A DNA stretch of 40,065 bases from contig CANRGO010000012.1 of the NCBI GenBank assembly GCA_947630125.1, positions 1 through 40,065 on the forward strand, in the 5' to 3' direction. Below, one piece after another: positions 12,229 through 30,351 of the stretch; positions within the stretch are counted from its first letter, which is position 1; the number at the start of each line of letters is the position of its first letter. The notes under the pieces are model-generated. The model was not told where the DNA came from and made no database searches. It was given only the letters and a program-made list of their open reading frames with translations. A program made the position numbers and the translations under genes. This DNA is from an uncultured Lachnospiraceae bacterium. GTDB lineage: Bacteria; Bacillota; Clostridia; Lachnospirales; Lachnospiraceae.

Positions 12229-12295
12229 ATTTACCTTTGTTAAGTAAAATCAGGTTACGTAACTTTATAGCATGTAAAAAAAATAGGTTAAAATT

Positions 12296-12310: not shown

Positions 12311-12336
12311 GAAATTTTATATTTACATAGAACATC

Positions 12337-12365
12337 TTGATAAATTTGCTTTGTCGTAGTATTCT
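12337..12365 (+). promoter_or_regulatory. Sigma-A promoter of the mannanase/transport operon
   Basis: TTGATA (12337-12342) and TATTCT (12360-12365) are separated by exactly 17 bases. Transcription would start near 12372, giving a leader of about 115 bases before the GH26 start at 12486. The leader carries two TTAAGTAAA copies and an AAGGGGAAAG ribosome site. Confidence 0.6.
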
Positions 12366-12485
12366 AAACTCATAAATAGAGTAAATTTAAGTTGATATTT
12401 AAGTAAATGAAATCCCTATTTAAGTTAATTAAAGTTAATTGTTAAGTAAAAAGTAAAATAAATTAAGGGGAAAGAACTTAAAAAC

Positions 12486-13994
12486 ATGAAAAATAAGGTT
12501 ATTTATTTATTGTTAGGTACTTTATTCCTAGTAATTCTTACAGGTTGTGGCTCCAGTAATAAAAATGATGAACATGACACGACACAGGAAGAAATCGTGG
12601 TGATAGAACCACCGGTTATTTATGAAGCAGAACAGGCGGATTTATCAGGAGGGGTTATGATTGATACAAAGAAAGAGTCCTATAGTGGAACTGGTTATGT
12701 GAATGGTTTTTCTGTAGATGAAGATGGCTGTCATTTTCAAGTTACCATAAAGGAAGCTGGTTTTTATGATTTTAATTTTATAAGTGCAAGTGAAGGCGGA
12801 TACAAAGAAAATATTGTTATGCTGGATCAGGAGAAAATGGGAACTGTTTCTATAGAGAGCACAGATTTTTCCGATTCTGTTTTAAACAGAATTTATCTGA
12901 CAGAGGGAGAACATGTTGTTTCCTATGTGAAGTATTGGGGCTACGTTAGATTAGATCGACTGGAGATTTCAAAGTCTCCTGCTTTAGCAGAAGATGTCTA
13001 TGAGGTAAGTGCGAAACTGGTGAATGAGAATGCTGGGGATGAAGCAAAACGTCTGATGAGTTATCTGACAGATATCTATGGAGAATACTTTTTAAGTGGG
13101 CAATATAGCGATGGAATGTATTCGAAGGATATGGCCTGTATCTGGAAAGAGAATGGGAACCAATATCCAGCTGTTCTAGGACTTGATCTAATCGAATATA
13201 CACCTTCAAGAGTTTCCCATGGAAGTACATCGAAAGCAGTTGAACATGCCATAGAATTTTGGGAAAAAGGTGGAATTGTTACTTTCTGCTGGCACTGGAA
13301 TGCACCAGAAAAATATTTAAAAGACCCATGGTATAGTGGCTTTTACACAGAATACACAGATATTGATTTAGAGAAAATAATGAATGGGGAAGACCAGGAA
13401 GAGTATGACCTGTTAATGCAAGACATTGATGCCATTGCAAAGCAATTGCTGATCCTACAGGATGCAGGCGTTCCGGTACTTTGGAGACCTCTTCATGAAG
13501 CCAGCGGAGGCTGGTTTTGGTGGGGAGCTAAGGGAGCAGAGCCATATTTAAAATTATATAAACTATTATATGAACGCTTAACCAATGAATATCAACTAAA
13601 CAATTTGATTTGGATTTGGAATGGTCAGGACAAAGACTGGTATCCAGGAGATGAATATGTGGATGTGATCGGGGAAGATATTTATCCTGGGGAACAGGTA
13701 TATAGCTCTCAAATGCCAAAATATTTAGAAGCACTGGAGTATACGGATGCAAATAAAATGATTGTGCTTTCAGAGAATGGTTGTTTGTTCGATCCGGATT
13801 TGGCAATTAGAGATGGAGCTATGTGGGGATTTTTTGCAACCTGGAGCGGAGAGTTTGTAAGTAAAGCAGGTGGACTTAATATTTATTCTGAACAATACAC
13901 AGACAAAGAGATGTTGAAAAAAGTGTATGCTCATGAAAAGGTCCTTACCTTGGATGAATTACCAGACTTAAAAACCTATGAAATAAAGGAATAA
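12486..13994 (+). CDS. GH26 endo-beta-1,4-mannanase lipoprotein with CBM35-like domain
   Basis: The 502-residue protein begins with a lipoprotein signal ending in the lipobox LTGC, so the mature enzyme is anchored to the outer face of the membrane. Residues about 45-165 form a CBM35/CBM6-like beta-sandwich (YEAEQADLSGG start, IYLTEGEH near the end). Residues about 180-490 are a GH26 barrel with acid/base Glu338 in RPLHEASGGWFWWG and nucleophile Glu430 in VLSENG. It should cut mannan backbones into oligosaccharides at the cell surface. It is the first gene after the promoter at 12337, ahead of the transport genes. The ribosome site is about 15 bases upstream, which is longer than usual. Confidence 0.94.
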   Translation: MKNKVIYLLLGTLFLVILTGCGSSNKNDEHDTTQEEIVVIEPPVIYEAEQADLSGGVMIDTKKESYSGTGYVNGFSVDEDGCHFQVTIKEAGFYDFNFISASEGGYKENIVMLDQEKMGTVSIESTDFSDSVLNRIYLTEGEHVVSYVKYWGYVRLDRLEISKSPALAEDVYEVSAKLVNENAGDEAKRLMSYLTDIYGEYFLSGQYSDGMYSKDMACIWKENGNQYPAVLGLDLIEYTPSRVSHGSTSKAVEHAIEFWEKGGIVTFCWHWNAPEKYLKDPWYSGFYTEYTDIDLEKIMNGEDQEEYDLLMQDIDAIAKQLLILQDAGVPVLWRPLHEASGGWFWWGAKGAEPYLKLYKLLYERLTNEYQLNNLIWIWNGQDKDWYPGDEYVDVIGEDIYPGEQVYSSQMPKYLEALEYTDANKMIVLSENGCLFDPDLAIRDGAMWGFFATWSGEFVSKAGGLNIYSEQYTDKEMLKKVYAHEKVLTLDELPDLKTYEIKE

Positions 13995-14012
13995 AACAGA
14001 GGATGTGAAGTG

Positions 14013-14654
14013 ATGAAACAATTATTTCGTTTGGATGGCGCTTTGTTGCAATGGATGACTACGCTGGGGCATATGATTCTGGTGAGTATTTTCTGGATCA
14101 TAGGTTGTCTGCCTATCATAACCATTGGTACTTCTACAACAGCTCTTTATTATGCAACTGTCAAATCCATTAAAAAAGGAAGAAGTTATGTATGGACGGA
14201 ATTTTGGCAGGCCTATAAAAGAAATTTTGTAAAGGGAAGCGTGATTACAAGTATCGTTGTTCTGATTGGGTCATTGTTTTATATTAATCGAAATATTTTT
14301 CTGGAAACAAGGGATCCTGGACAGGGAAGAATGCTGCTTCTCTTTGGTGTGTGTTTAGTCTTGCTTGCTGCAGTGTTAGTGTACCTTTTTCCCGTGATGT
14401 CCAGATTCCAGATGAAACTTTCCGCCATGCTTGGCTTGAGTTTTGTAATGTCTTTAAAATATTTACCGTTTACTGTATTGCTCCTTATGTCAACGTTGCT
14501 TGTGGCGTGGGCGCAGATAATGGTATTACCCTGGCCATTGATTTTTGTGGTGCCAGCTGGTCTTTGTTATGTGAATTCTTATTTGATTGAAAAGGTGTTA
14601 AAGGCTTATACGCCAAAACCGGCAGACTCAGAAGATGCCTGGTATTACGAATAA
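14013..14654 (+). CDS. YesL/DUF624-family membrane protein, copy 1
   Basis: The 213-residue protein has about five hydrophobic segments and the DUF624 (YesL) signature around CLPIITIGTSTTALYYA, plus the conserved ending DAWYYE. I prefer the ATG at 14013; a GTG at 14010 directly before it has slightly better spacing to the AGAGG site. YesL proteins are repeatedly encoded beside carbohydrate ABC importers in Firmicutes, but their function is unknown. Here it lies between the mannanase gene and the CBM-solute-binding fusion. A paralogue of nearly the same length lies at 29687-30331. Confidence 0.88.
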   Translation: MKQLFRLDGALLQWMTTLGHMILVSIFWIIGCLPIITIGTSTTALYYATVKSIKKGRSYVWTEFWQAYKRNFVKGSVITSIVVLIGSLFYINRNIFLETRDPGQGRMLLLFGVCLVLLAAVLVYLFPVMSRFQMKLSAMLGLSFVMSLKYLPFTVLLLMSTLLVAWAQIMVLPWPLIFVVPAGLCYVNSYLIEKVLKAYTPKPADSEDAWYYE

Positions 14655-14671
14655 AGCACGGGGGTAAGGAA

Positions 14672-17600
14672 ATGGCTTACGTTAGGTTAGCAGAAAAATT
14701 TGCAAAAGCAGTTGTTCTAAGTTCGTTTTTGGGAGTGTTTTTATGTGCACATGTGGATGTGGAAGCAAAGACAACGTTTTCTCAACAGGAGTATCAATAT
14801 CGAATTGGAACCTATTCCATAGATGATTCTATTTTACACTATCAGGATTATCAGGCACAATTTGAATCGTCATTTCCGGACGGAGAATATGAAATGAAGG
14901 GGTCTTCCTTTGTTCGTTATGAAGAGGATGGGGTAAGTTTAGAGCCTGAAATTCTTTCCAACTACATGGATATACCTGGTGGTGGGGATGCTGTGGTAAC
15001 CAAAGAAAACAGTCTGATTGAATATGAGGTTCAAATAGAAGAAGAAGGATTTTATAATCTTTCCTTATTATATTATCCAATTGCCGGAAATAGTGCACAG
15101 ATTCAACGTTCCATATTTATAGACGGGGTTCTGCCTTATGATCAGCTGGCGTTGGTAGAGTTTGCAAGAATTTGGACCAATGAAATAGTGGAATCTTATG
15201 AAAATGAAGATGGCATAATGGTTAAAAAATGGAACGTGGATAATCAGGGAAATGATTTGAAACCTTCTTCCATAGAAGCCCCTGAGTGGGTGGAAACCAA
15301 TATGTATGATGCAGAAGGTTATATTACAACACCCCTATCCATTTATCTAACCAAAGGAAGCCATACGATTACATTTGTCTCTCAGAGAGAACCCATGGTA
15401 ATTGGTGCGTTGAAACTGAATAATTTAAAACCACTAAAAACGTACGACGAAACGAAAGCAGAACTGGATGCTAGTGGAGTTACTGACAGTCATGGGCAGC
15501 TAATCAGAATTGAAGCTGAAAATGTGAACAAAACTTCATCTCAGATGCTATATCCGCAGCAAGATCAAGGTTCTCCTGCTATATATCCTTCCAGTGCCAA
15601 GGCATTAAAAAATAATTCCATTGGAGGAAATTCCTGGAGACTCATAGGGCAGTGGTTGGAATATGAATTTGAGGTACAGGAAGAAGGATATTATCATATC
15701 GCTCTTTATGCAAAGCAGAATTTTTCCAGAGGAACTTATGTTTCCAGAAAAATATATCTTGATGGTCAGGTTCCTTTTCAGGAACTCAATAACTATGGCT
15801 TCTCCTATGAACAAAACTGGAGAGAGGATGTGTTATCAGATAAAGAGGGAGAACCTTATAAAATTTATCTGACAAAGGGAACCCATACTCTTCGTATGGA
15901 AGCTGTTTTGGGAGATTTTTCCCAAGTAATTAGTGAAGTTCAAGAATCCGTGACAGCGCTAAATTCCATTTATCGAAAAGTAATCCGCATTACAGGGGTT
16001 GCTCCTGATGTTTATCGAGATTATCAAATAGAGACTTCCTTACCCGAATTAGAACAGGAACTAATAGCGGTTCGTGATAAATTAAGTAATGCCATAACGA
16101 ATCTTCGAGAGTTTGCAGGAAAAGGCAGCGATAAGGAAAGTGTTCTTCGTACCATGAGAGATCAGCTCAATGAGTTGATTGAAGATCAAGAACGTTTTGT
16201 GGAGGTCATTGCTTCCTATAAAGTAAATATGAGGGCAACAGGAAACTGGATTACCTCTGCGATTCAACAACCTCTTCAGTTAGACAGAATCTATATCTAT
16301 TCGCCAGATGAAACAACGGATATTTCGAATACAGGTTTTTTTGCAAAAGTATTTTATGAAGTAAAACGACTTTTTTATTCCTTTATCATTGACTATAACC
16401 AGATTGGAAATGTAGCAAAAGAAAGTGAAGCAAAAGAAGCTGACACCATAACACTCTGGATTGGTTCGGGAAGAGATCAGGCCAATGTAATCAAATCCTT
16501 AATTGATGAAACCTTTACCAATCAGACAGGCATCAATGTAAATGTACAGTTGGTGGATATGAGTACTCTGCTTCGGGCAACTCTGGTTGGAGAAGGACCC
16601 GATGTTGCGATTCAGGTGGCAAATACCACGGGTATTGCAGGAGCGGTACTGAATACTGGAAATGATACACCGGTTAATTATGGACTTCGAAATGCAGTCT
16701 TAGATTTAACCATGTTTGAAGATTTAGAAGAAGTAAAACAAAGATTTCCGGAAAGTGCAATGGTAGCGTTTGAGTTTGACTCGGCAACCTATGGCTTACC
16801 AGAGACTATAACCTTCCCCATGATGTTTTATCGAAAAGATATTTTGTCGGAACTTGGAATGGAAGTACCTACTACCTGGGATGAAGTAAAGGTGGCGATG
16901 ACGATTCTGGCAAAAAATCAAATGGAATTTGCTATGTTGCCTAATGAACAGACCTTTGCTATGTTACTTTTCCAAAACGGTGGAAGATATTATCGAGATG
17001 CTGTAATCGATGGCATATTATATGAAGGAATTACATCGGATCTGGATTCAGATATTGCTGTAAACACCTTTAAACAATATTGTGAATTCTATACCGATTA
17101 CAAATTAGATAAGGAAACCAGTGTGGAAGAACGTTTTCGTACCGGGGAATCGCCAATAATGATTGCAGATTATACAACCTATAATAATTTGATTATATCA
17201 GCTCCAGATTTAAAAGGTTTATGGGATTTTGCACCAGTTCCTGGAGTTGTTTACACCGATGAAAATGGTCAGGAACAGGTCAATCATGCAACAGGTTGTA
17301 CAGGTCTTGCCAGTATCATTATGGCAGATACCGAATACCCAGATGCTTGTTGGGAATTTTTAAAATGGTGGACATCAGCAGAAACGCAGGTGGTATATGG
17401 CAGAGAAATGGAAAGTCTCATGGGAGCATCAGCCAGAGTACCAACCGCTAATTTAGAAGCCTTTGCAAGTCTTCCATGGCCTTTAGAGGATAAAAAAGCA
17501 CTATTGGAACAGCTAGAAGCTGTACAGGGAATCCCACAGGTTCCTGGGGGCTACTACTCTTGGAGAAATGTTAACAATGCCTTCTATAGTGTAACCGTTT

Positions 17601-17728
17601 CAACCAACATTGATACTGCTTCAACTAGAGAAGAGTTAATGGATAAAATAATATTTGTAAACAAAGAAATCGACTTTAAACGGAAAGAATTCAAGCTTCC
17701 GTTAGCAGAAGAAATTGAAACCAAGTAG
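14672..17728 (+). CDS. Exported fusion of two CBM-like domains, a helical stalk and an ABC solute-binding domain
   Basis: The 1018-residue protein has an N-terminal signal peptide, with a likely signal peptidase I site after VEA (residue 32-33); the FLC in it is a poor lipobox. Residues about 35-260 and 276-425 are two beta-sandwich domains of CBM6/35 type, each with an IYLTKGSHT or IYLTKGTHT motif. A charged, mainly helical stretch follows to about 585. From residue 590 to the end it is a family 1 extracellular solute-binding domain (ITLWIGSGRDQANV, TTWDEVK, WEFLKWW). It should deliver sugars to the permeases encoded next. The size is more than twice that of a usual binding protein, and with no lipid or membrane anchor visible its attachment is unclear. 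Confidence 0.88.
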   Translation: MAYVRLAEKFAKAVVLSSFLGVFLCAHVDVEAKTTFSQQEYQYRIGTYSIDDSILHYQDYQAQFESSFPDGEYEMKGSSFVRYEEDGVSLEPEILSNYMDIPGGGDAVVTKENSLIEYEVQIEEEGFYNLSLLYYPIAGNSAQIQRSIFIDGVLPYDQLALVEFARIWTNEIVESYENEDGIMVKKWNVDNQGNDLKPSSIEAPEWVETNMYDAEGYITTPLSIYLTKGSHTITFVSQREPMVIGALKLNNLKPLKTYDETKAELDASGVTDSHGQLIRIEAENVNKTSSQMLYPQQDQGSPAIYPSSAKALKNNSIGGNSWRLIGQWLEYEFEVQEEGYYHIALYAKQNFSRGTYVSRKIYLDGQVPFQELNNYGFSYEQNWREDVLSDKEGEPYKIYLTKGTHTLRMEAVLGDFSQVISEVQESVTALNSIYRKVIRITGVAPDVYRDYQIETSLPELEQELIAVRDKLSNAITNLREFAGKGSDKESVLRTMRDQLNELIEDQERFVEVIASYKVNMRATGNWITSAIQQPLQLDRIYIYSPDETTDISNTGFFAKVFYEVKRLFYSFIIDYNQIGNVAKESEAKEADTITLWIGSGRDQANVIKSLIDETFTNQTGINVNVQLVDMSTLLRATLVGEGPDVAIQVANTTGIAGAVLNTGNDTPVNYGLRNAVLDLTMFEDLEEVKQRFPESAMVAFEFDSATYGLPETITFPMMFYRKDILSELGMEVPTTWDEVKVAMTILAKNQMEFAMLPNEQTFAMLLFQNGGRYYRDAVIDGILYEGITSDLDSDIAVNTFKQYCEFYTDYKLDKETSVEERFRTGESPIMIADYTTYNNLIISAPDLKGLWDFAPVPGVVYTDENGQEQVNHATGCTGLASIIMADTEYPDACWEFLKWWTSAETQVVYGREMESLMGASARVPTANLEAFASLPWPLEDKKALLEQLEAVQGIPQVPGGYYSWRNVNNAFYSVTVSTNIDTASTREELMDKIIFVNKEIDFKRKEFKLPLAEEIETK

Positions 17729-17739
17729 GGGGAAAAAGT

Positions 17740-18669
17740 ATGGCAACAAAAGAAGCGTTAGAACTTGCGAGAAAACAAAAAACGCTGGGATACCGATTAA
17801 AACAAAATAGAGCCTCCTATGTCATGATGGCACCATATTTTATTCTGTTTTTCTTTTTTACCGTTGCACCAGTTGTAATTTCCATCGGATTAAGTTTTAC
17901 CTATTTTAATATGTTAGAAGCTCCAACGTTTGTGGGTTGGGAAAATTATGTTCGTTTGATTTTAGAAGATGACATTTTTATGGTGGCACTGAAAAACACC
18001 ATGTTATTTGCAGTAATCACTGGACCGATTAGTTATTTTCTGTGTCTTCTGTTTGCGTGGATTATCAATGAATTTAATGGAAAACTAAGAGCATTTTTAA
18101 CCTTGATTTTTTATGCACCTTCTATCGTTGGTAATGCATACCTGGTTTGGAATATTATTTTAACCGGAGATCGTTATGGACTTTTGAATGGACTTTTATT
18201 AAGACTTGATATTATCAATGAAGCTAAGGTTTGGATGAAGACCGAGGAGTATATTCTTCCAATTCTGATTGTTGTGCAGTTGTGGTTATCCCTTGGAACC
18301 GGTTTTCTTGCTTTTATAGCTGGTTTGCAAACGGTAGACAGGTCTCTTTATGAGGCGGCAGCGATTGATGGGGTAAAAAATCGTTGGCAGGAGTTGTATT
18401 ATGTTACGCTTCCAGCCATGAAGCCACAGTTGATGTTTGGTGCGGTTATGCAGATAACACAATCCTTTGCAATCGCTGATATTTCCATTAATCTGGCAGG
18501 AAATCCATCCGTGAATTATGCAGGAGCGACAGTGGTAACCCATCTTTTAGATTATGGCTCAACCAAATTTGAAATGGGTTATGCCTCTGCGATTGCAACG
18601 GTGCTATTCCTATTGATGGTTGGAACCAATAAATTTGTACAGAAAATACTGAGAAGGGTGGGAGAATAG
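17740..18669 (+). CDS. Carbohydrate ABC importer permease (MalF-like), pair 1
   Basis: The 309-residue protein has six predicted membrane helices and the cytoplasmic EAA loop (EAAAIDGVKNRWQELYY), through which a permease contacts the ATPase. This marks it as the first membrane subunit of a CUT1-type sugar importer. It follows the CBM-solute-binding fusion by 11 bases, so that protein is its likely donor. The stop codon overlaps the start of the partner permease. No ATPase is encoded nearby, so a shared MsmK/UgpC-like ATPase is presumed (inference from the usual Firmicute arrangement). Confidence 0.93.
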   Translation: MATKEALELARKQKTLGYRLKQNRASYVMMAPYFILFFFFTVAPVVISIGLSFTYFNMLEAPTFVGWENYVRLILEDDIFMVALKNTMLFAVITGPISYFLCLLFAWIINEFNGKLRAFLTLIFYAPSIVGNAYLVWNIILTGDRYGLLNGLLLRLDIINEAKVWMKTEEYILPILIVVQLWLSLGTGFLAFIAGLQTVDRSLYEAAAIDGVKNRWQELYYVTLPAMKPQLMFGAVMQITQSFAIADISINLAGNPSVNYAGATVVTHLLDYGSTKFEMGYASAIATVLFLLMVGTNKFVQKILRRVGE

Positions 18670-19556
18670 TGGCTGAAGCGAACTTACAAAAACGAAAATT
18701 TTTCAAACTGAAGCCAACGAAACTTAACCGCTCAAGAGCAGGAAATGGTCTGCTGTTTGGCTTGATGATTATCTGTGGATTATTTATGGTATTACCCCTG
18801 GTTATGATCGTAAATAATGCATTGAAACCTTTGGATGAATTATTTCAATTTCCACCAAAGATTTTTGTTCGAAATCCAACCTTAGAAAGCTTTTCGGATT
18901 TATTTGTACTTATGAATGATACCTGGGTACCTTTTTCCAGATATATTTTAAATACGTTGATAATAACCATAGGAGGAACTGTGGGCCATGTACTGGTTGC
19001 ATCCCTTGCAGCCTACCCTTTAGCAAAACATGATTTTCCAGGGAAAAAGACACTCTTTCGTATGGTAGTTTTATCCATGATGTTTTCCTGGACAGTAACA
19101 CAGATTCCTAATTATATGATTATTTCCTGGCTTCATATCAACAACACTTATGCAGCCTTGATTTTACCAGCCTGGCAGTTTGGTATGGGTCTTTACCTGA
19201 TGAAACAGTTTATGGAACAACTTCCAGACTCACTTATGGAGTCTGCCAGACTGGATGGTGCCAGTGAGTATTCCATATTCTTTAAAATAGTCATGCCAAA
19301 TGTTAAGCCGGCTTGGCTTACACTAGCAATTTTTCAGTTCCAGCAGATGTGGGGAAATACAGGAGGAATGTTCTTACGTAATGAAGAATTAAAGCCTTTG
19401 CAGTATGCATTGCAGCAAATCACCGCTGGAGGTGCAGCAAGAGCTGGAGCGTCAGCAGCAGTTACTTTTATTATTGCAGCCATTCCAATCACGTTTTTCC
19501 TTGTATGCCAGAGCAACATATTAGAAACCATGACAACGTCAGGTATGAAGGAATAG
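18669..19556 (+). CDS. Carbohydrate ABC importer permease (MalG-like), pair 1
   Basis: The gene uses a GTG start whose first base is the last base of the previous stop codon, with a GGGTGGGAG ribosome site, so the two permeases are translationally coupled. The 295-residue protein has six membrane helices and an EAA loop (ESARLDGASEYSIFFK). It is the second half of the CUT1 importer channel. The NHL-repeat gene begins 12 bases after its stop, so the unusual accessory genes are in the same transcript. Confidence 0.93.
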   Translation: MAEANLQKRKFFKLKPTKLNRSRAGNGLLFGLMIICGLFMVLPLVMIVNNALKPLDELFQFPPKIFVRNPTLESFSDLFVLMNDTWVPFSRYILNTLIITIGGTVGHVLVASLAAYPLAKHDFPGKKTLFRMVVLSMMFSWTVTQIPNYMIISWLHINNTYAALILPAWQFGMGLYLMKQFMEQLPDSLMESARLDGASEYSIFFKIVMPNVKPAWLTLAIFQFQQMWGNTGGMFLRNEELKPLQYALQQITAGGAARAGASAAVTFIIAAIPITFFLVCQSNILETMTTSGMKE

Positions 19557-19568
19557 GAGGGTGAAGGG

Positions 19569-21092
19569 ATGAGAATAAATAGAACAAAAAGCAAACATCT
19601 TTTTGCCTTACTGATCACCATTGCTATGATGGGTAGTCTGTCTCTGGAAGCGAAAGCATACACACTTCCTTATGACACCTATAATTATGATTATCGTAAT
19701 GATATTGTTTTTACACCGGCAGCCTATATTCCAGAGAAAAGTATTACGGCAACGGGACTTAACACCAGTGGACTTGTAGATGAAAATGGAGAAGAAATAC
19801 AACTAAATGCTTTTTCTAATCCACAGGATTTATGTGTGGCACCAGATGGAAGTGTTTATGTTGCAGATACTGGAAATAACCGGATCGTGGTTTTGGATCA
19901 TACATTAAAGAAGTGTCTTAATATTATTACTAGTTTTGATCATGAAGGAACAGTAGATACGTTTAATGCTCCCAATGGAGTTTGTGTTTCTGAAAATAAT
20001 CAGCTCTACATAGCAGATACCATGAACAAGCGTGTTGTAGTGCTTGAACTGACTGGAGACCTTATAAAAATAGTTGAGAATCCTCAGTCGGAAATTTTGG
20101 AAGATAATTTTTCATTTGCACCATTAAAAGTAACAGTGGATTATGCAGATCGTATTTATTGCATTGCACAAAATGTATTTGAAGGATTGATGGTATTTGA
20201 AAATACTGGTGAATTTACTGGATATTTTGGAACAATCAAAGTAGATATCAGCTTGTTTGAAAAATTTTGGAGAAAGATTTCTACCAAGGAACAGCGCTCC
20301 AGACAAGCACTTTTTATCCCTACGACTTTTACAGGAATTGACGTAGATAGTGACGGTTTTATCTATGCTTCCAATCTGGACTCCTTAAATGGGGTACAGG
20401 CAGTTCGCAGACTAAACCCAAAGGGTGAGGATGTAATTAAGAAGGGCATCAAGAAAAATGTAGGTGGTGATCTTTGGATCATAGGAAACAGTAAATATAG
20501 TGGACCATCTGAAATGACGGATGTGGTTTATCGTGACAAGGGTATGTACTCCCTGCTTGATCGTAAGCGTGGCAGAGTTTTCACCTATGATCATGAAGGA
20601 AATCTGCTTTATATTTTTGGTGGATTAGGAACCCAGGCAGGAACTTTTAAAGCGCCGGTAGCCATTGAAATATTAGAAGACAAAATTATCGTGTTAGATT
20701 CACTTCGAGCTGAAATTTTAACCTTTAGCCCAACGGAATATGGCAATTTAATAAATGATGCAGTGGCGTTGCGCTTTGACGGAGATGAAACTCTGGCAGA
20801 AGAAAAATGGCTACGAGTTTTAGAACTGGATGAAAACAACGAACTTGCAAACAGTGGTATTGGGAAAGCTCTTTTAACCAAAGGTGATTATAAAAATGCC
20901 ATGAAATACTTAAAACTTGGAATGAACAGAGAGTATTATTCCATTGCCTTTAAAAGATATCGAAATGAAATGCTGGAAGGAAATATGAATTTAATTCTTT
21001 CTGTTTTACTAGTACTGATTGTTGTTTATGCAGTTGTAAAACGTAGACGAGATAAAAAACGTGGAAAAGTAAAAGAAGGAGGGTTATTGTAA
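19569..21092 (+). CDS. Membrane-anchored NHL beta-propeller protein with TPR-like segment
   Basis: The 507-residue protein has a signal peptide (cleavage near EAKA-Y), then an NHL-repeat propeller from about residue 75 to 400. Classic blade motifs are VAPDGSVYVADTGNNRIVVLD and, in the next blade, LYIADTMNKRVVVLE. Residues about 400-465 look like TPR helices (AEEKWLRVLELDENNELA). A single membrane helix at about 473-492 is followed by a Lys/Arg-rich tail, giving an outside propeller and an inside tail. No catalytic function is evident; NHL propellers often bind proteins or glycans. It overlaps the YIP1 gene by one base, so the two products are probably made together and may form a complex (inference). 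Confidence 0.88.
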   Translation: MRINRTKSKHLFALLITIAMMGSLSLEAKAYTLPYDTYNYDYRNDIVFTPAAYIPEKSITATGLNTSGLVDENGEEIQLNAFSNPQDLCVAPDGSVYVADTGNNRIVVLDHTLKKCLNIITSFDHEGTVDTFNAPNGVCVSENNQLYIADTMNKRVVVLELTGDLIKIVENPQSEILEDNFSFAPLKVTVDYADRIYCIAQNVFEGLMVFENTGEFTGYFGTIKVDISLFEKFWRKISTKEQRSRQALFIPTTFTGIDVDSDGFIYASNLDSLNGVQAVRRLNPKGEDVIKKGIKKNVGGDLWIIGNSKYSGPSEMTDVVYRDKGMYSLLDRKRGRVFTYDHEGNLLYIFGGLGTQAGTFKAPVAIEILEDKIIVLDSLRAEILTFSPTEYGNLINDAVALRFDGDETLAEEKWLRVLELDENNELANSGIGKALLTKGDYKNAMKYLKLGMNREYYSIAFKRYRNEMLEGNMNLILSVLLVLIVVYAVVKRRRDKKRGKVKEGGLL

Positions 21093-21724
21093 TGGGAAAC
21101 TTTTTTTCAAAAGACAAGTGGAAATATGCATTCTATACAGTAAGTCATCCTGTTGATGCATATTATGAAATACGTCATCGTAACAGAGGAAGTGTTCCTA
21201 TTGCAGTATTTCTTGTTATGCTATTTTCGTTTTGCTTTTCCATGAATCGTATGATGGCAAGTTTTGTAGTGAATGATATCGACCCTAGAAGCGTAGATTC
21301 TTTTACAGAACTCGGGGGAGTTTTACTCTTATATTTTTTATTTTGTGTTGGAAACTGGTCCATTACCTGTCTGATGGGTGGAGAAGGAAGGCTTAAGGAC
21401 ATTGCTATAGCAATTGGTTATGCAGCAATACCCCTTATCTTATCGTTTGTACCGGCAACCTTGATTAGTCAGGTGATAGCAGCGGATGAAGAAACTTTTT
21501 ATGGACTTATCTTATTCATTGGAATTACCTGGGCGGTTATTATGGCCTTAATTGGAATTATGCAGGTACATAATTATACCCTTGGAAAAACGTTATTGAC
21601 TTTAGTTCTGACTTTTGTAGCCGTTTTGATTATTATTTTCATCGGTCTGCTGATTGCAGATTTGATTAACCAGGTGTATGGATTCTTTTATAGTATCTAT
21701 ACAGAACTGATTTTTAGGACTTAG
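21092..21724 (+). CDS. YIP1-family multi-pass membrane protein
   Basis: The 210-residue protein has about five membrane helices after a short cytoplasmic N-terminus containing SHPVDAYYEIRHRNRGS, the usual entry of bacterial YIP1-domain proteins. The central GNWSITCLMGGEGRLKDI segment and the later helices fit the Yip1 fold. Its function in bacteria is unknown. The start codon overlaps the NHL gene stop (TAATG), and a GGAGG site lies in the NHL 3' end. It is flanked by two extracellular-facing proteins and two permease pairs, which suggests a structural or assembly role in the transport complex (inference). Confidence 0.85.
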   Translation: MGNFFSKDKWKYAFYTVSHPVDAYYEIRHRNRGSVPIAVFLVMLFSFCFSMNRMMASFVVNDIDPRSVDSFTELGGVLLLYFLFCVGNWSITCLMGGEGRLKDIAIAIGYAAIPLILSFVPATLISQVIAADEETFYGLILFIGITWAVIMALIGIMQVHNYTLGKTLLTLVLTFVAVLIIIFIGLLIADLINQVYGFFYSIYTELIFRT

Positions 21725-21737
21725 GGGGATGGGACAG

Positions 21738-24317
21738 ATGAAATTAAGAAAAAAAATAATGTGGACTGTCATTGCCCTGGTATTAGCCTTGGTGGTGGGA
21801 TGGGTGCTATATTATCTGTTTCATTTTTATCTTTACAATGAATATCAAACCTATGTAACTTCTTATGAAACAGAGCAGGGAAGCGAGTTTCAACCACTTA
21901 AGGAAAGTTCACCATCAGTGGAGGGCATGGTACTAGTAGCAGAAAATGATAATTTTAAGTTGTATACAAATGATAAAACCGCTGAAATTGCAGTTTTTAA
22001 TAAAGCAGATCAAACCATTACTTATTCAAATCCTCCCATGGCTGAAGAAGATAGCATTGCTTCTAACACCAATAAGAATTATTTGAAATCTCAAATTATT
22101 CTGGATTATTTTAATTCGAAACAGGCAGCTGGTACCTATGACAGTTTTAGTATGTCTGTAGAAAAAGAGCAGTTTACCTTAGAAAATCTTGAGGATGGAA
22201 TACGCTACACGTATGAATTTGGGGATAAAACCAGCGTTACAGGTATCGTACCCATTTATATCTCCAAAGAGAAACTGGAAGAAGTACTTTCCCTTATGTC
22301 AGAAGAAGGCGCTAAATACGTAAAAAGCAGATATCGTGAAAGTGAAACCTTAGGCGAAGGATATTTGGAATTAAATGAATCAGCAGCGGCAGGGCGAAGT
22401 ACCTTGCGTAAATTAAATAAGTATTATGAGGAAGCGGGTTTCACAGAAGCGGATTTTGTTACAGAAATGGAAAACTCAGGAGTGGAGGGAGCAATTCCTC
22501 AGACGTTTGTTGTAGCAGTAGAATATCGTTTGACCAAAGAGGGCTTGGAAGTTTCTGTACCTATGAATTTGGTCGAAGAACAGGGTGGAGGAAAAATCTA
22601 TCGCATCCAGCTATTAAACTTCTTAGGAGCAGCATCCATGGAAGAAGAAGGTTATCTTGTGGTTCCAAACGGATCGGGTTCTCTGATTTATTTTAATAAT
22701 AAAAAGACCAATGCAGATGAGTATTCTCAATATATTTACGGTATTGATCCGCTCATGGCTGATTACACCGTTATGGAAAATATGGAAAAAGCAAGACTTC
22801 CATTATTTGGAATTTGTAGAGAAAACTCCAGTATTTTAACAACCATTGAAGATGGTCAGTCTCTTGCTTATATTACCGCAGGAATCGCAGGAAAAATCAA
22901 CTCCTATAACTATGCATATCCTACCTTTGTTTTACGTGGAAATGAAAAGCTTTCCATGGGTGGAGGATTAGGAGATGAAGTTACCTTTACCGTTGTGGAG
23001 AAAGAAATTTATGATGTGAATTTAAAGGTTTTGTATACCTTTTTAACGAAAGAACAAAAAGGGTATTCAGGAATTGCAAATACTTACAGACAGCGTTTGT
23101 TAGATCTGGGAGTTTTAAAAGTACAGGAAGATACAGATACCATTCCGTTTTATTATGATGTGATTGGTGGAGTTAAGCAAACTGGATTTTTCTTAGGTAC
23201 CCAATACTTAAAAGTATTTCCTATGACTACCTTTGAAGAGGCAGGAGAAATATATGAGGATTTAAAACTTGAAGGAATTAGCAAGCAGGTAATGAATTAT
23301 CAGGGCTGGTTTAATGGCGGCTATTATCATGATGTTCCAGATAAAATAAAAGTAATTCAGAAACTTGGTGGAAAAAAAGGGTTAGAAGCGTTAAGTCAGC
23401 AAATGTCAGAAGATGGTAACCGTTTTTATGGCGATGTTGTATTTCAACCGGTAACGTTTATATCCAAACGCTTTCAATATAATATGGAATCCTCTCGTTA
23501 CTATGGGGCAGGTTATGTAGCTCATTTTGGACAGGTGAATCCGGCGAATCTAAGACAGACAGCGCCTCTAAATTATATGGAAACTATGTATGATCTTTTG
23601 TCACCCAAATTTTTGCCTCGTTATGTGGAAAAATTTTCGGACCGGGTTGAAAACATAGAAATGCAGGGAATTTCTCTTCGAGATTTGGGAGACTTTTTAT
23701 ATTCCGATAAAAAAAGGACCCATGTAATCGATCGTGAAGAGGCTTTGGATGTGGTAATTGGGCAGTTTGAGCGTTTACTTGAAACGGAAAAAAATCTTAT
23801 GGTAAATGGAGGAAATGATTATACGTTTTCCTTTATAACGGATATATTAAATGCACCTATTTCTCATAATGATTATTTTATTGTAGATGAAGAAATACCC
23901 CTATATGAAATGATTGTTCAGGGATGTCTGGATTACAGTTCAGATCTGATTAATCTGACGGATTCCTTTGATGAAAAAACCGTGGTTTTAAATTTGATAG
24001 AAACGGGAGCATCTCCACACTTTGTATTTACTTATGAAGATTCAACCAACATGAAGTATACCGGACTTAATCGTTATTATGCAACAACCTATAGCACCTG
24101 GAAAGAACTGGCTGTGTCCGTTTATACACAGGTCAATGAAGCATTAAAGTATGTGAATGGTGCGATGATCATAGAGCATGAGATTTTGGATGAAGGCGTG
24201 AAAAAAGTAAGTTATAGCAATGGTGTTACCATTTATGTGAATGAAAGTAATCAAGAAGTACAGGTGGGTACCATTCTTTTAGAGCCACTAAGTTATGAAC
24301 TGGAGGGAGTAAATTAA
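21738..24317 (+). CDS. DUF5696-type membrane-anchored protein with glycosidase-like features
   Basis: I start at the ATG at 21738, nine bases after AGGGGG; an ATG at 21729 is too close to that site. The 859-residue protein has an N-terminal signal anchor (residues about 7-32), leaving the rest outside the cell. The N-terminal half is beta-rich. Residues about 460-760 alternate strands and helices like a TIM barrel, with YQGWFNGGYYHDVP, an Asp566 strand end in YGDVVFQ, and Asp649/Asp652 in RDLGD. The C-terminus is beta-rich. I assign DUF5696 from memory of family context. Enzyme activity is speculative; a binding or scaffold role is equally possible. The permease gene begins 2 bases after its stop. 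Confidence 0.75.
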   Translation: MKLRKKIMWTVIALVLALVVGWVLYYLFHFYLYNEYQTYVTSYETEQGSEFQPLKESSPSVEGMVLVAENDNFKLYTNDKTAEIAVFNKADQTITYSNPPMAEEDSIASNTNKNYLKSQIILDYFNSKQAAGTYDSFSMSVEKEQFTLENLEDGIRYTYEFGDKTSVTGIVPIYISKEKLEEVLSLMSEEGAKYVKSRYRESETLGEGYLELNESAAAGRSTLRKLNKYYEEAGFTEADFVTEMENSGVEGAIPQTFVVAVEYRLTKEGLEVSVPMNLVEEQGGGKIYRIQLLNFLGAASMEEEGYLVVPNGSGSLIYFNNKKTNADEYSQYIYGIDPLMADYTVMENMEKARLPLFGICRENSSILTTIEDGQSLAYITAGIAGKINSYNYAYPTFVLRGNEKLSMGGGLGDEVTFTVVEKEIYDVNLKVLYTFLTKEQKGYSGIANTYRQRLLDLGVLKVQEDTDTIPFYYDVIGGVKQTGFFLGTQYLKVFPMTTFEEAGEIYEDLKLEGISKQVMNYQGWFNGGYYHDVPDKIKVIQKLGGKKGLEALSQQMSEDGNRFYGDVVFQPVTFISKRFQYNMESSRYYGAGYVAHFGQVNPANLRQTAPLNYMETMYDLLSPKFLPRYVEKFSDRVENIEMQGISLRDLGDFLYSDKKRTHVIDREEALDVVIGQFERLLETEKNLMVNGGNDYTFSFITDILNAPISHNDYFIVDEEIPLYEMIVQGCLDYSSDLINLTDSFDEKTVVLNLIETGASPHFVFTYEDSTNMKYTGLNRYYATTYSTWKELAVSVYTQVNEALKYVNGAMIIEHEILDEGVKKVSYSNGVTIYVNESNQEVQVGTILLEPLSYELEGVN

Positions 24318-24319
24318 GT

Positions 24320-25252
24320 ATGCAAAAAACAGAAAAGAAAAGCATAAAAAAGCATAAAATGACTCTCTCTAAAAAAAGAAGCATTACAGGGTATTTGTTT
24401 ATTATGCCCTGGTTGCTTGGGTTCCTGCTGTTTTATGTGCGATCTCTTTATATGACGATGGAATTTTCCATGTCAGAATTAATTGTTCCACCTGGTGGAG
24501 GTTACTCCTTAAGCTTTGTTGGGTTTACAAACTATATTTATGCATTCTTTGCCCATGGAAGTTTTGTACAGGTGCTTGCAACCTCCGTCTTGAATATGAT
24601 GATTGATGTTCCACTTATTATCTTTTTTAGTTTGTTTATGGCTCTTTTACTAAATAAGAAATTTACTGGAAGAACCCTGGTTCGTGCGATTTTCTTCCTT
24701 CCCGTTATTTTAAATTCAGGAGCCATCGTAGATGCAATGGAAATGAGCAGAGCCATGATGGCAGGAGGACTTTCCACTGTAAGTGCAGAGCTTACCACGT
24801 CCAGCAGCAGTGTGAATGTAGGGTATTATATTGAATTATTTAAAAATCTTGCCATGCCTGATATTTTACTTGATTATATTGTGGCTGCGGTTTCCAGAAT
24901 TAGTGAAATCATTACAGCCAGTGGGGTACAGATTATTATCTTTATTGCTGCACTACAATCCATACCAGGTTCCATGTACGAAGTTGCACAGATTGAAGGC
25001 GCTACGGGTTACGAAACATTTTGGAAGGTTACATTTCCCATGGTAATGCCACATATTATTACGAATGTGGTTTACACCGTGGTAGATAATTTCATCGACA
25101 GTGAAGTGGTAGATTTGGCTTTTGAAACAGCATTTACCAACTATCAATATGGATTAAGCTCTGCAATGAGTCTTGTAAGTACGGTGATCACCTGTTTGAT
25201 TCTGTTTATTGTTGTTTGGTTTATACAGAAGAAGACATTTTACTATAATTAG
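24320..25252 (+). CDS. Carbohydrate ABC importer permease (MalF-like), pair 2
   Basis: The 310-residue protein has a charged N-terminus, six membrane helices and an EAA loop (YEVAQIEGATGYETFWK), which place it in the CUT1 permease family. It differs clearly from the permease at 17740, so this is not a recent duplication. It contains a Ser/Thr-rich extracellular loop (ELTTSSSSVN) between helices. Spacing of 2 bases from the DUF5696 gene and 14 bases to its partner supports one operon. Confidence 0.92.
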   Translation: MQKTEKKSIKKHKMTLSKKRSITGYLFIMPWLLGFLLFYVRSLYMTMEFSMSELIVPPGGGYSLSFVGFTNYIYAFFAHGSFVQVLATSVLNMMIDVPLIIFFSLFMALLLNKKFTGRTLVRAIFFLPVILNSGAIVDAMEMSRAMMAGGLSTVSAELTTSSSSVNVGYYIELFKNLAMPDILLDYIVAAVSRISEIITASGVQIIIFIAALQSIPGSMYEVAQIEGATGYETFWKVTFPMVMPHIITNVVYTVVDNFIDSEVVDLAFETAFTNYQYGLSSAMSLVSTVITCLILFIVVWFIQKKTFYYN

Positions 25253-25266
25253 AAAGGGGAAATGGA

Positions 25267-26259
25267 ATGAAGATAATACATACAGCAAAAGATAAAATGG
25301 ATCATCTAAAACTAGATACACAGTTTGCCAATGATCGAAAAAAAGCCATTGTTATGCTGAAACATTTCCTCTTTGGTTTATTTCGTGCAGTGGTTTTGAT
25401 TGGAATTTCTTATGTTATTTTAAGTCCGGTTTTTGGAATTATTGCCAGTTCATTTTTTTCCGATGCTGATAATTATAATCCTATGGTTTTCCTGATTCCT
25501 CAGGAGCCTACCTTAGAACGTTATCAGATTGCTATGGAGAATATGAAGTATAGTTCTACCGTTCTCGTATCTCTGCTCTATTCCTTAACGCTGATGATCA
25601 TACAGGTGATTGTCTGCTCCATGGTAGGGTATGGTTTTGCAAGATTTCAGTTTCCATTTAAGAATTTATTGTTTTTCTGTGTTGTAGTAATGATTATTAT
25701 TCCAACCAATACAATTATGTTACCGGTTTATATGACCTTCCGGGACTTTAACTTTTTTGGACTGTTTTCTTTATTTGGCAAGAGTGGGGTGAATTTACTT
25801 AGTACCCCATGGCCTATGTACATTATGACTGCCTTTGGCTGTGGTCTTAGGTCGGGCTTGTATATCTACATTTTCAATCAGTTTTTCAGGGGTCTCCCAA
25901 AGGAAATTGAAGAAGCGGCATTTGTAGATGGAGCAGGAACCTGGTATACCTATTTTCGCATTATGCTTGTGAATGCCATTCCATCGGTAATCACAGTAGC
26001 AATTTTTGCTATGGTTTGGCAGTATAATGATACGTTTTATGCGAAGTTGTTTCTGATTAGCCCAGACGTGGTAATCGGTAAAAAAATAAGTACTTTACAG
26101 GCCAATATTGCAAATATTTATCAAATCCAGGACAGCAATATTACCCAACTTTATCTGGATGCCGGAATTGTACTTGTTATGTTACCTGTGATTATTATCT
26201 ATGTGCTATTACAGAAATACTTTATAGAAGGTGTTGAACGAAGTGGTATTGTGGGATAA
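25267..26259 (+). CDS. Carbohydrate ABC importer permease (MalG-like), pair 2
   Basis: The 330-residue protein carries an N-terminal cytoplasmic tail of about 35 residues, six membrane helices and the EAA loop (EEAAFVDGAGTWYTYFR). It completes the second CUT1 channel with the permease at 24320. The start follows an AAAGGGG ribosome site. No ATPase gene follows; the next genes are two lipoproteins, the second being the probable binding protein for this pair. Confidence 0.92.
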   Translation: MKIIHTAKDKMDHLKLDTQFANDRKKAIVMLKHFLFGLFRAVVLIGISYVILSPVFGIIASSFFSDADNYNPMVFLIPQEPTLERYQIAMENMKYSSTVLVSLLYSLTLMIIQVIVCSMVGYGFARFQFPFKNLLFFCVVVMIIIPTNTIMLPVYMTFRDFNFFGLFSLFGKSGVNLLSTPWPMYIMTAFGCGLRSGLYIYIFNQFFRGLPKEIEEAAFVDGAGTWYTYFRIMLVNAIPSVITVAIFAMVWQYNDTFYAKLFLISPDVVIGKKISTLQANIANIYQIQDSNITQLYLDAGIVLVMLPVIIIYVLLQKYFIEGVERSGIVG

Positions 26260-26307
26260 GACGTTCAAACCAAAAAACAAACAACGAAACAAGGAGGAAT
26301 GGGAAAG

Positions 26308-28095
26308 TTGAAAGCAAAAAAAATCATGGTATTACTTCTTTCAGCAGTAATGATCTTGTCGTTAGCAGGATGCGGTAAAGAAGTACAAGAAGCAACAGAA
26401 ACAGAAGTAACAGAAACAACGGAAACACCAGAAGTAACGGAAACAGAAGAAGTTGCAGCAAGTATTGATTTTGAAGACGGATTATTTGGTTTTATGGGGG
26501 TTGACACGACAAAAGGAAATGCAGATGAATCTGTTTTATCAGTGGAGGATTTTGCAGGTTCTAAAGCTTTAAAAGTAACGGTTTCTGGTAAGGTACCTTA
26601 CATCGTCCTGGATGTAGAAGGATTACTTGGAGACAAAATATCAACAGTTAGAACCATTGAAATGGATATGGGTCTGGAAAATCCAGATGGAACATTTGAA
26701 GCATGTTCAGGAAATATTTATGTGTATAGTGGAGCAGAAAATGTAGAAACGTATTCAGGATGGTCCGTTTATTTAGATACAAAGAATCCAAATAAGATTT
26801 CTGCAGTTCTTGATACAGAAGCAAAATATATGGCAGCAGGTTTAGGAAATAAAGTTATTATTACAAAAGAAGTTGATAATGGAGCAACCCTTTCAAATCT
26901 TTACATTGATAACATTCGTTTCTTAGACGAAGCAGGGGCAGTAATCGAAGCCAATTCTTCAGCAGTGTATGTAGCACCTGTTGCGGCAGAAGCGGATATG
27001 AGCAACCTGAAATATCTGAAAAATGTAGTGGAATTCCCTGGATTTGCAACTGGAGCAGATGCATGGGCACAAGCTGGATTTGATATGCCACAGGAAGTAA
27101 TTGATGCCTTAGTGCCTGGATCTATCATTCAGATTGAATATATGAGTGAAACAGGAGATATGTGGCTTGTAGTGCCTGGAGCAGCAGCAGGTTGGATGAG
27201 AGTATCTCAGCAAACAGCAACAAAGAATAATTCTAAAAATATTGCACAGATTTCTTTTGAAGAAATTGCAGCATTATGTGGTGATGATGTAAGCCAGTGG
27301 GGCACCATGTTACAAGGTGAATCAGATGGTAAGTGGGAAATTTATAAAGTATCTGTTGGACAGGATTCAGGGATTGTAACTCTTGGAAGTACAGTAGAAT
27401 TTCCAGACTTTGCAACAGGAGCAGATGCTTGGGCTCAGGCAGGCTTTGATATGCCAGAAGAATTCATAGCAGCTTTAGTTCCAGGATCAGTGATTGAAAT
27501 TGAGTACAGCAGTGAAATGAACAATATGTGGCTGGTATTCCCTGGCGCAGCAGCAGGCTGGATGAGAGTACAACAACAGACAGCAGCAGCAACCAACAGC
27601 ATTTGTCAGGTTACATTTGAACAAATTGCAGAAGTTTGCGGCGATGATGTTAGTCAGTGGGGAACCATGTTACAGTGTGAATCCGAAGGCAAATGGGAAG
27701 TATTTGCTGTTCGTGTAGGCCAGCCTTCTAAAATACAGGCTCTTAGCAATAAAGTTGAATTTACAGGCTTTGCAGTTGCAGCAGATGCATGGGCACAGGG
27801 TGGCTTTGATATGCCACAGGAAATTATTGATGCACTTGTTCCAGGATCTGTAGTAGAATTAAATTATACCAGTGATACAGGATTTTTATGGCTTGTAATG
27901 CCAGATGCAGCAGCAGGCTGGATGAGAGTAGAACAGCAGACAGCAGAATGCAATGGTTCGGTTTGTCAGATTACCTATGAACAAATTGCAGCAGTATGCG
28001 GGGATGACAAAACCACCTGGGGAGCGAGAATGCAGGCAGAATCAGATGGTGCATGGGAAGTATATAGTGTGTTTGTAGGAACACCTGCAGAATAA
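26308..28095 (+). CDS. Surface lipoprotein with three tandem 120-residue repeats, putative glycan binder
   Basis: The AAGGAGG site at 26291-26297 is one base from the ATG at 26299 but ten bases from the TTG at 26308, so I choose the TTG. The signal peptide ends in the lipobox LAGC. A Thr/Glu-rich linker follows, then a beta-rich domain (about residues 50-215, IDFEDGLFGF start). Three tandem repeats of 122, 120 and 113 residues fill the rest. Each contains DAWAQxGFDMP, MWLV or LWLV, AAAGWMRVxQQTA, CGDD and a Trp-Gly motif. Conserved Trp residues on a short beta module suggest carbohydrate-binding modules, but I recognise no named family. Its position between permease pair 2 and the binding protein supports a mannan-capture role (inference). 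Confidence 0.82.
   Translation: MKAKKIMVLLLSAVMILSLAGCGKEVQEATETEVTETTETPEVTETEEVAASIDFEDGLFGFMGVDTTKGNADESVLSVEDFAGSKALKVTVSGKVPYIVLDVEGLLGDKISTVRTIEMDMGLENPDGTFEACSGNIYVYSGAENVETYSGWSVYLDTKNPNKISAVLDTEAKYMAAGLGNKVIITKEVDNGATLSNLYIDNIRFLDEAGAVIEANSSAVYVAPVAAEADMSNLKYLKNVVEFPGFATGADAWAQAGFDMPQEVIDALVPGSIIQIEYMSETGDMWLVVPGAAAGWMRVSQQTATKNNSKNIAQISFEEIAALCGDDVSQWGTMLQGESDGKWEIYKVSVGQDSGIVTLGSTVEFPDFATGADAWAQAGFDMPEEFIAALVPGSVIEIEYSSEMNNMWLVFPGAAAGWMRVQQQTAAATNSICQVTFEQIAEVCGDDVSQWGTMLQCESEGKWEVFAVRVGQPSKIQALSNKVEFTGFAVAADAWAQGGFDMPQEIIDALVPGSVVELNYTSDTGFLWLVMPDAAAGWMRVEQQTAECNGSVCQITYEQIAAVCGDDKTTWGARMQAESDGAWEVYSVFVGTPAE
27028..28092 (+). repeat. Three tandem coding repeats of 113-122 codons
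   Basis: Units span 27028-27393, 27394-27753 and 27754-28092 and stay in frame. Units 1 and 2 share CGDDVSQWGTMLQ, while unit 3 has CGDDKTTWGARMQ. DNA similarity is visible over the most conserved stretches, which suggests duplication within the gene followed by divergence. Confidence 0.9.
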
Positions 28096-28158
28096 GTAGG
28101 CAATGAAACCAGAGTTAAACTTATCAACCGATACGAAAAATAGGAGGATTACAAGAAC

Positions 28159-29550
28159 ATGAAATTTTGGAAAAAATTCGTTTCTCTAGGACTGATCATG
28201 TCTATGAGCATTAGTTTAATGGCTTGTGGTGGAGCAGAAACCACAGAAACCACAGAAACTGCAGAAACCACAGAAACTGCAGAAACAGTAAAACCAAGTG
28301 GTGAAAAAAGAGTGATTACAATTGGTACCTGGTATGATCATTTTTATGATAGCACCAATACCGATATCTATGAAAATCCTTATGTAACAGACGAGGAACA
28401 AGCTGAAATGCAGCTTGCAAATGTACGTGCTATCGAAGAAAAATACAATGTTGAGATTAAGTTTGTAAATCTTACATATCAAGGTGTACAGGATTCTATT
28501 AATACTTCAATTCTGGCAGGAGCACCTGACTGTGATATTTATGAAGTGGATTTACAGTTTGGTATTCCGGCTGCATTAAATGGATACGCAACAGATTTAT
28601 CTACCGTTTTACCTGAAGACAGTGATATTTTTGCTGATCAGAATGTTATGAAGTATATTCAGATCGGTGAAAGTGAAGAAGCTTATTTAATGAAAGCTGT
28701 AGCTGCAGAAACAACGATTGAAGCAACTTATCCACTTGCATTTAACAAACAAATGCTAGACGATGCAGGCTTGGAAGATCCTCGTGATTTATATGCACGT
28801 GGTGAATGGACATGGGATAGATTCCGTGAGTATATGTTAACACTTACCAAAGACAGTGATGGAGATGGGGTTGTTGATGTGTATGGATTTGGTAGTGATT
28901 ACCAGAATTTATTCGGTGGATTATTAATGAGTAATGGTGCAACTGTTGCATCTGGAACAACTCAGACAGTAACCAATCCTGAGGTTGGTGAAGTGTTAGA
29001 GTATATGTACAATATGTACAATGTTGATAAATCTGCTTATCCTTGGTATGCTGATGACTTCGATACCAATCGTCTTTGGTATAAAGATGGTCTTGTTGGA
29101 TTCTGGGTAACCGCTGCATGGATTATGGATTCTAACAAAGATGCAGACTTAGAATTTGACGTTTGCATGGTTCCATGGCCAGTTGGACCAAGTGGTAATC
29201 AGGAAACAAACAAAATGAAAAACGTTACAAGTGGTAATGCATGGATGATTCCAAGTGGTGTCGAGGATCCTGAATTTGTTTACAATGTATTTTATGATTG
29301 GACAAACTGGTACAACTTCGATACAGAATACCGTGATAGCAACTTAAGCTGGTGGGAAGATGCTGTTATAACAGAAGAAAACTTTGCTGTTATGGAAGAA
29401 CTTGGCGCAAGAGAAAACTTTGATTTATGGAATAACCTTGGTGTTGCTTATGATTTAGAAGGTCTGATTACTGGTGTTATCACACCATCTCAGTTCCAGG
29501 AAACATATAAACAACTTTACCAGGATGCATTAGACGCTTTCTTTAAATAA
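28159..29550 (+). CDS. Sugar-binding lipoprotein of the ABC importer
   Basis: The 463-residue protein has a lipoprotein signal with lipobox LMAC, then a short Thr/Glu/Ala repeat linker, then a family 1 solute-binding fold beginning RVITIGTWYDH. Many aromatic residues (WTWDRF, YPWYAD, WTNWYNF, LSWWED) fit a groove for oligosaccharides. It should bind mannan-derived oligosaccharides outside the membrane and pass them to a permease pair, most likely the pair at 24320-26259. An AGGAGG site precedes the start by 11 bases. A hairpin follows the gene, as often seen after highly expressed binding-protein genes. Confidence 0.92.
   Translation: MKFWKKFVSLGLIMSMSISLMACGGAETTETTETAETTETAETVKPSGEKRVITIGTWYDHFYDSTNTDIYENPYVTDEEQAEMQLANVRAIEEKYNVEIKFVNLTYQGVQDSINTSILAGAPDCDIYEVDLQFGIPAALNGYATDLSTVLPEDSDIFADQNVMKYIQIGESEEAYLMKAVAAETTIEATYPLAFNKQMLDDAGLEDPRDLYARGEWTWDRFREYMLTLTKDSDGDGVVDVYGFGSDYQNLFGGLLMSNGATVASGTTQTVTNPEVGEVLEYMYNMYNVDKSAYPWYADDFDTNRLWYKDGLVGFWVTAAWIMDSNKDADLEFDVCMVPWPVGPSGNQETNKMKNVTSGNAWMIPSGVEDPEFVYNVFYDWTNWYNFDTEYRDSNLSWWEDAVITEENFAVMEELGARENFDLWNNLGVAYDLEGLITGVITPSQFQETYKQLYQDALDAFFK
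28234..28287 (+). repeat. Six 9-base units encoding a Thr/Glu/Ala linker
   Basis: Units of the form [A/G]CAGAAAC[C/T/A] follow one another six times directly after the lipobox cysteine codons. They encode alternating TET and AET triplets. Such a run can expand or shrink by slippage in whole codon triplets, changing the tether length between the lipid anchor and the binding domain. Confidence 0.85.
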
Positions 29551-30331: not shown

Positions 30332-30351
30332 ATTTGTTCGAGGTGATTCCC

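Follow-up and report, generated by a model that had tools for sequence, protein, structure and literature searches.

The locus described here raises the question of whether three membrane-protein genes lying between two pairs of ATP-binding cassette (ABC) permease genes belong with these permeases to a single glycan uptake system. It was found in an uncultured Lachnospiraceae bacterium (GCA_947630125.1), whose genome assembly comprises 2.64 Mb in 170 contigs; the window, i.e. the whole stretch of DNA analysed, is a single contig of 40,065 nucleotides (CANRGO010000012.1). The three genes encode an NHL beta-propeller protein, a YIP1-family protein and a DUF5696 protein. From their conservation across related loci, we conclude that the cassette genes are one inherited unit, and we consider it probable that the block specifies an ABC glycan importer of the CUT1 type, equipped with its own extracytoplasmic scaffold for holding glycans.

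Conservation and modules of the cassette

Open reading frames (ORFs) and a Pfam scan of the window proteins revealed an uninterrupted order on the + strand. It starts with a DUF624/YesL-type small membrane protein, an accessory of the window's own clade with four predicted transmembrane segments (14010..14654; DUF624 E 2.2e-19), and a solute-binding protein (SBP) fusion (14672..17728; SBP_bac_1 E 3.9e-19), followed by subunits A (17740..18669) and B (18669..19556) of permease pair 1. The NHL protein (19569..21092; NHL E 2e-16) has an N-terminal signal, an NHL beta-propeller with tetratricopeptide repeats (TPR), a C-terminal transmembrane segment (472-490) and a basic tail. It is followed by the YIP1 protein with five transmembrane segments (21092..21724; Yip1 E 2.2e-14), the DUF5696 protein with an N-terminal transmembrane anchor and a GH129-fold ectodomain (21729..24317; Pfam E 7.5e-190), and subunits A (24320..25252) and B (25267..26259) of permease pair 2, all four permeases matching BPD_transp_1. 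The last two genes encode a lipoprotein that is an accessory of this clade (26299..28095; lipobox LAGC) and the variable solute-binding lipoprotein SBP2 (28159..29550; SBP_bac_1 E 3.2e-14; lipobox-like LMAC). Neighbouring core genes are −1 to 17 bases apart, and 39 and 63 bases precede the last two genes, in agreement with the order on one strand with short gaps or overlaps that the initial annotation had described. What had been named a repeat lipoprotein is present, its repeats being three carbohydrate-binding modules of the CBM65_1 type (E 6.4e-72, three stretches).

A DUF5696 profile search yielded 80 loci from Lachnospiraceae, Oscillospiraceae, Paenibacillus, Cohnella, Gracilibacillus, Thermobacillus and others, to which 60 further loci were added from genomes of the window's class, giving 133 DUF5696 genes inside a cassette. 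The exact seven-gene string perm1A-perm1B-NHL-YIP1-DUF5696-perm2A-perm2B occurred in 60 of the 80 loci, the remaining 20 being explained by cut contigs, ORF-caller misses or fusions. Presence was counted in the 88 loci with sufficient flank, from Clostridia and Paenibacillaceae. The SBP fusion and the complete pair 2 were each present in 87 of these, the NHL gene in at least 86 and the complete pair 1 in 83, the five pair 1 gaps being counted as called. YIP1 was found in 88/88 after six-frame reading of seven apparent absences, which proved to be ORF-calling artefacts or NHL-YIP1 fusions; in loci L108 and L125, the fused ORF also supplied the missing NHL. The cassette is carried by 62 of the 291 genomes sampled from the window's class (about one in five) and by many Paenibacillaceae. 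In these 291 genomes, a DUF5696 gene is found no more than 5 kb from 79 of 81 NHL-family genes and from 82 of 84 YIP1-family genes, the exceptions being contig-end cases and one weak hit. Because the gene order was found again in practically all related loci that were examined, it goes far beyond chance, and chance clustering is excluded. The suggestion that the three genes and the permeases are one system is thus upheld: they do not live mostly apart, and permease pairs flank DUF5696 in 83-87 of the 88 loci.

This is supported by gene fusion, NHL and YIP1 being joined at many loci, and by co-variation. The window's genome has another complete cassette (contig C27, ~5078-17800), which encodes NHL and YIP1 as a single 689-residue protein. 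Such a fusion fits the predicted topology, with NHL outside, one membrane segment, a basic cytoplasmic tail and then YIP1; predicted topology and structure models also back the large outside domains proposed initially. The TPR part of the NHL protein was clear in 18 of 28 relatives. Distance matrices of eight cassette genes correlate at 0.87-0.97, and those of the flanking LacI and GH26 genes reach only 0.75-0.82, compared with 0.95-0.98 for core pairs at the same loci. SBP2 is the most variable member (median identity 25%), and its distances correlate better with those of pair 2 and DUF5696 (0.93-0.94) than with those of perm1A (0.85). Conservation is highest in pair 1, with median identities of 61% (subunit A, 86 loci) and 56%.

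Some genomes of 2-3 Mb in the same phylum (G329, G351, G370, G423 and G452) contain 8-17 NHL genes and similar numbers of DUF5696 genes, together with ~4 to 11 fusion SBPs, fragments included; NHL-YIP1 fusions also occur among their copies. Twenty loci were read in these expanded genomes, of which seven were complete, 12 lacked pair 1 and one was truncated. All 19 untruncated copies keep NHL-YIP1, DUF5696 and pair 2, and in one of the 12 the fusion SBP is still nearby, close to a contig end. Since 12 of the 19 lack pair 1, we conclude that NHL-YIP1-DUF5696-pair 2-SBP2 is the indivisible core, and that pair 1 and the sandwich-SBP fusion together make up a second module, conserved but detachable, which might, as a guess, serve other copies in trans. 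The initial view of twin permease pairs as one indivisible arrangement is therefore abandoned, as many expanded copies have neither pair 1 nor the SBP fusion.

Properties of the DUF5696 protein and the transport proteins

The predicted structure of the DUF5696 protein (pLDDT 90.9, pTM 0.88) matches, over the whole ectodomain, the GH129-like DagB (5opq; Z 30.7, root-mean-square deviation 4.2 over 585 residues) and the GH129 enzyme NagBb (5wzn; Z 29.9), and a sequence profile comparison with DagB gave E 1.3e-11. A branch of standalone Pfam-DUF5696 proteins of ~570 residues bridges the cassette proteins to NagBb (hhalign E 6.1e-37; E 1.6e-32), the second value being that of the profile match between this branch and NagBb. 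Through this bridge, NagBb E478, which we take to be the acid/base, corresponds to N693 of the window protein, and NagBb D435 to D652. The residue D435 is catalytic in NagBb (PMC5698469). Asp occupies the nucleophile position in 93 of the 133 cassette proteins, the window included, and Glu the acid/base position in 15, this being Asn, Ser, Asp, Thr, Tyr or another residue in the other 118. Both NagBb-type residues are found in 11 members, of which nine belong to the L090-L111 group, and neither residue in 36. The window protein thus has the predicted GH129 fold without the conserved catalytic pair. An ordinary GH129 enzyme is rejected for the window because of the loss of the acid/base, and, judging from model and alignment, the protein is most likely a pseudo-glycosidase. 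The idea that the complex perhaps trims polysaccharide is not supported for the window, because the catalytic acid/base is absent. The standalone relatives, whose sequences suggest that they are probably unrecognised GH129-like enzymes, retain both residues in 8/8 cases; those from L142, L143, L144, L145, L146, L148, L153 and L179 apparently have no signal peptide.

The SBP fusion was modelled (pLDDT 88.1) as an N-terminal signal/anchor helix, two beta-sandwiches (70-250 and 275-412), a helical bundle and a CUT1-type solute-binding domain, the last matching oligosaccharide SBPs at Z 34. It had been annotated as a fusion of a carbohydrate-binding module and a binding protein; the SBP part was recovered, and the sandwiches, with weak Pfam matches only (GH115_C, Golvesin_C and CBM35), take the place of the presumed module. 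All four permeases contain EAA coupling loops, namely EAAAIDG in subunit A of pair 1, a loop shared by 71 of 73 members in subunit B, the EAA-like EVAQIEGA in subunit A of pair 2 and EAAFVDGAG in its subunit B. The two pairs are only 22-26% identical, which rules out a recent duplication. No ATPase gene lies within the cassette; one UgpC/MsmX-class ATPase is encoded above cut-off elsewhere in the genome (C8:14067-15170; 498 bits, cut-off 432). The locus and genome therefore provide what characterizes CUT1 importers, i.e. an SBP_bac_1-type binding protein, two transmembrane subunits with EAA loops and a candidate shared ATPase. Ordinary ABC import by the cassette is plausible from these sequences, because all four permeases have EAA loops and the genome encodes an ATPase of this class. 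None of the PDB sequences was matched by the YIP1 profile.

Proposed mechanism and alternative explanations

Based on the obligate linkage, the fusions, the topology and the fold, we infer that NHL, YIP1 and the pseudo-GH129 protein would assemble physically as a scaffold on pair 2 that holds glycans and helps to load them for transport. Surface enzymes, here the GH26-CBM35 lipoprotein, would cut galactomannan, and long fragments would be kept close to the membrane by the CBM65 lipoprotein and by the DUF5696 ectodomain in its capacity as a pseudo-glycosidase. The NHL propeller-TPR protein, tied to the membrane via YIP1, would organise the complex on pair 2; the fast-evolving SBP2 would confer specificity and load this pair, while the SBP fusion would load pair 1. 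A shared UgpC/MsmX-type ATPase could power both pairs, and GH130, GH36, GH2 and epimerase would finish the oligosaccharides inside. More tentatively, NHL, YIP1 and the GH129-derived pseudo-glycosidase could be indispensable components of ABC glycan importers of a class not yet described, which hold polymer fragments at the Gram-positive membrane. Such importers would have a variable core (pair 2 and SBP2) and a second permease module that can be shared, and would have been duplicated and re-specialised in the manner of SusCD systems.

Several points weigh against this importer-with-scaffold interpretation. Roles are assigned to NHL and YIP1 by analogy only, gene order is evidence of common function and not of physical assembly, and the co-inheritance correlations are partly due to physical linkage. 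Carbohydrate binding by the DUF5696 ectodomain and by the sandwiches of the SBP fusion is putative, SBP2 could load either pair, and the members with both NagBb-type residues suggest that a few DUF5696 clades may be hydrolytic.

Alternatively, the DUF5696 protein could be an active glycosidase anchored in the membrane at the entrance of the channel, where it would remove side chains ahead of import, perhaps by means of a modified catalytic pair. The GH129 fold, the frequent nucleophile Asp (D652 in the window), the nearly invariant D720 and E758 and the 11 potentially intact members would agree with such an enzyme, which we nevertheless regard as unlikely given the replaced acid/base in 118 of 133 members, the 36 members with neither residue and the difference from the standalone relatives, all of which keep both. 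Only slightly less credit is due to two ordinary, independent CUT1 importers for oligosaccharides of different sizes, with the three middle genes accessory to one or neither. The low identity between the pairs, the plausible SBP of its own for each and the loss of pair 1 from many expanded copies are as expected for separate importers; the middle genes, however, practically never occur without permeases, have a pair on either side and vary together with each of the two.

Pseudo-enzyme and propeller ectodomains can act as receptors, and both LacI regulators and a methyl-accepting chemotaxis protein (MCP) are encoded in the locus, so that NHL, YIP1 and DUF5696 might sense a glycan or a busy transporter and signal via YIP1 to transcription or chemotaxis. 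This appears improbable, as domain scans of the three proteins revealed no signalling domain and the regulators differ among loci while the core is constant. The importer with a glycan-holding scaffold remains our preferred explanation.

Genomic context and comparison with known systems

The locus around the cassette is a galactomannan locus. The upstream catabolic genes (3892..13994, + strand; Pfam scan) encode a LacI-type binding domain, a GH2 mannosidase, GH36, epimerase, GH130 and the GH26-CBM35 lipoprotein; the LacI-type ligand-binding protein (3892-5016) has no match to the Pfam LacI helix-turn-helix. Downstream, a second DUF624/YesL gene (29687..30331, + strand; DUF624 E 1.9e-11) is preceded by a promoter-like TTGACA-17-TATAGT (11/12; 29644-29672) and therefore probably has its own promoter and a separate transcript. 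The same locus continues (30334..38572, + strand; Pfam scan) with a LacI regulator, GH130, a GDSL esterase, the MCP (33744-36203), which is possibly a glycan sensor, and a 767-residue fusion of a GH1 glycosidase and a type I phosphomannose isomerase (36269-38572). No RNA element was found in the window with Rfam at gathering thresholds.

Elsewhere, the cassette adjoins other enzymes. Its neighbours are GH10, GH43, GH26, GH113 and GH2 in Paenibacillaceae; GH43, GH10, GH3, GH5 and sulfatases with radical-SAM/SPASM proteins in Clostridia; and, in the expanded genomes, GH28, pectate-lyase-like, GH106, apiosidase-like and melibiase genes, the surroundings there being rich in genes for pectin and rhamnosidase as well as GFO/IDH/MocA. 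The targets of these enzymes are mannan, xylan, arabinan-type, pectin or sulfated glycans. Because the neighbouring enzymes vary in this way, the cassette is not mannan-specific, and mannan specificity is ruled out. Next to the second cassette of the window's genome (L122) are GH51-type and GH43 genes, and a GH31 gene lies not far away. At L129 (4818-6071) and other loci of the class, a radical SAM/SPASM/SEC-C protein adjoins the cassette and sulfatases are among the neighbours, which suggests use on sulfated glycans.

The same gene block thus recurs in gut and soil Firmicutes beside enzymes for many plant fibres. Should the block be a single machine, it would account in part for the way in which large or branched glycan fragments are held and imported by Gram-positive bacteria of gut and soil. 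Three families without a known function (NHL-TPR, bacterial YIP1 and DUF5696) would also gain a role, and glycan-uptake loci could be recognised by a sequence marker similar to susCD. Carriers among cultured Paenibacillus, such as the type strains of P. pabuli and P. lautus, make the cassette testable. No paper naming the DUF5696 family, and none joining NHL and YIP1 to glycan import or to a polysaccharide utilization ABC transporter, was found in the open-access PMC literature searched; NHL and Yip1 are unmentioned in the main text of the JDR-2 transcriptome paper, and the transporter passages of the Paenibacillus sp. LS1 paper discuss XynEFG only.

Among known systems, the characterised mannan importer ManHIJ of Bacillus sp. 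N16-5 consists of a single SBP with a single permease pair (PMC4792470). Importers of this CUT1 type share with the cassette an SBP, two EAA-type permeases, a locus without an ATPase gene and a mannan context, but the published 12-gene list contains no NHL, YIP1 or DUF5696 (PMC4792470). From NagBb and DagB, with which it shares the whole-ectodomain fold at Z ~30, the cassette DUF5696 differs in its membrane anchor, an insertion at ~167-256, the non-conserved acid/base and its place inside an importer cassette. Like MusI/YesL (DUF624), the YesL protein is a small membrane protein beside a CUT1 importer; it is, however, only a clade-level accessory and, at 79.3 bits against the NCBIfam MusI_fam cut-off of 160, falls outside that family. 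Gram-positive polysaccharide utilization loci (gpPULs) combine a regulator, a polysaccharide-degrading enzyme and an ABC transporter (PMC10318527), and LacI, GH26-CBM35 and the cassette are likewise co-located here; the cassette adds a dedicated eight-gene transport block with core accessory proteins, in 8-17 copies in some genomes.

With SusCD systems, of which the initial annotation had inferred a Gram-positive counterpart in spirit, the cassette shares putative glycan-holding surface proteins coupled to import and many copies per genome beside varied carbohydrate-active enzymes (CAZymes). The ecological analogy therefore holds, through copy expansion and varied CAZyme neighbours, and homology does not: there is neither a TonB-dependent porin nor SusD, no SusC porin or SusD Pfam match was obtained among the 28 window proteins scanned, and the cassette encodes what appears to be an ABC importer of the Gram-positive cytoplasmic membrane. 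The best reading, by analogy, is that the cassette is SusCD-like in role and not homologous, and it has a fair chance of deserving the status of a distinct class.

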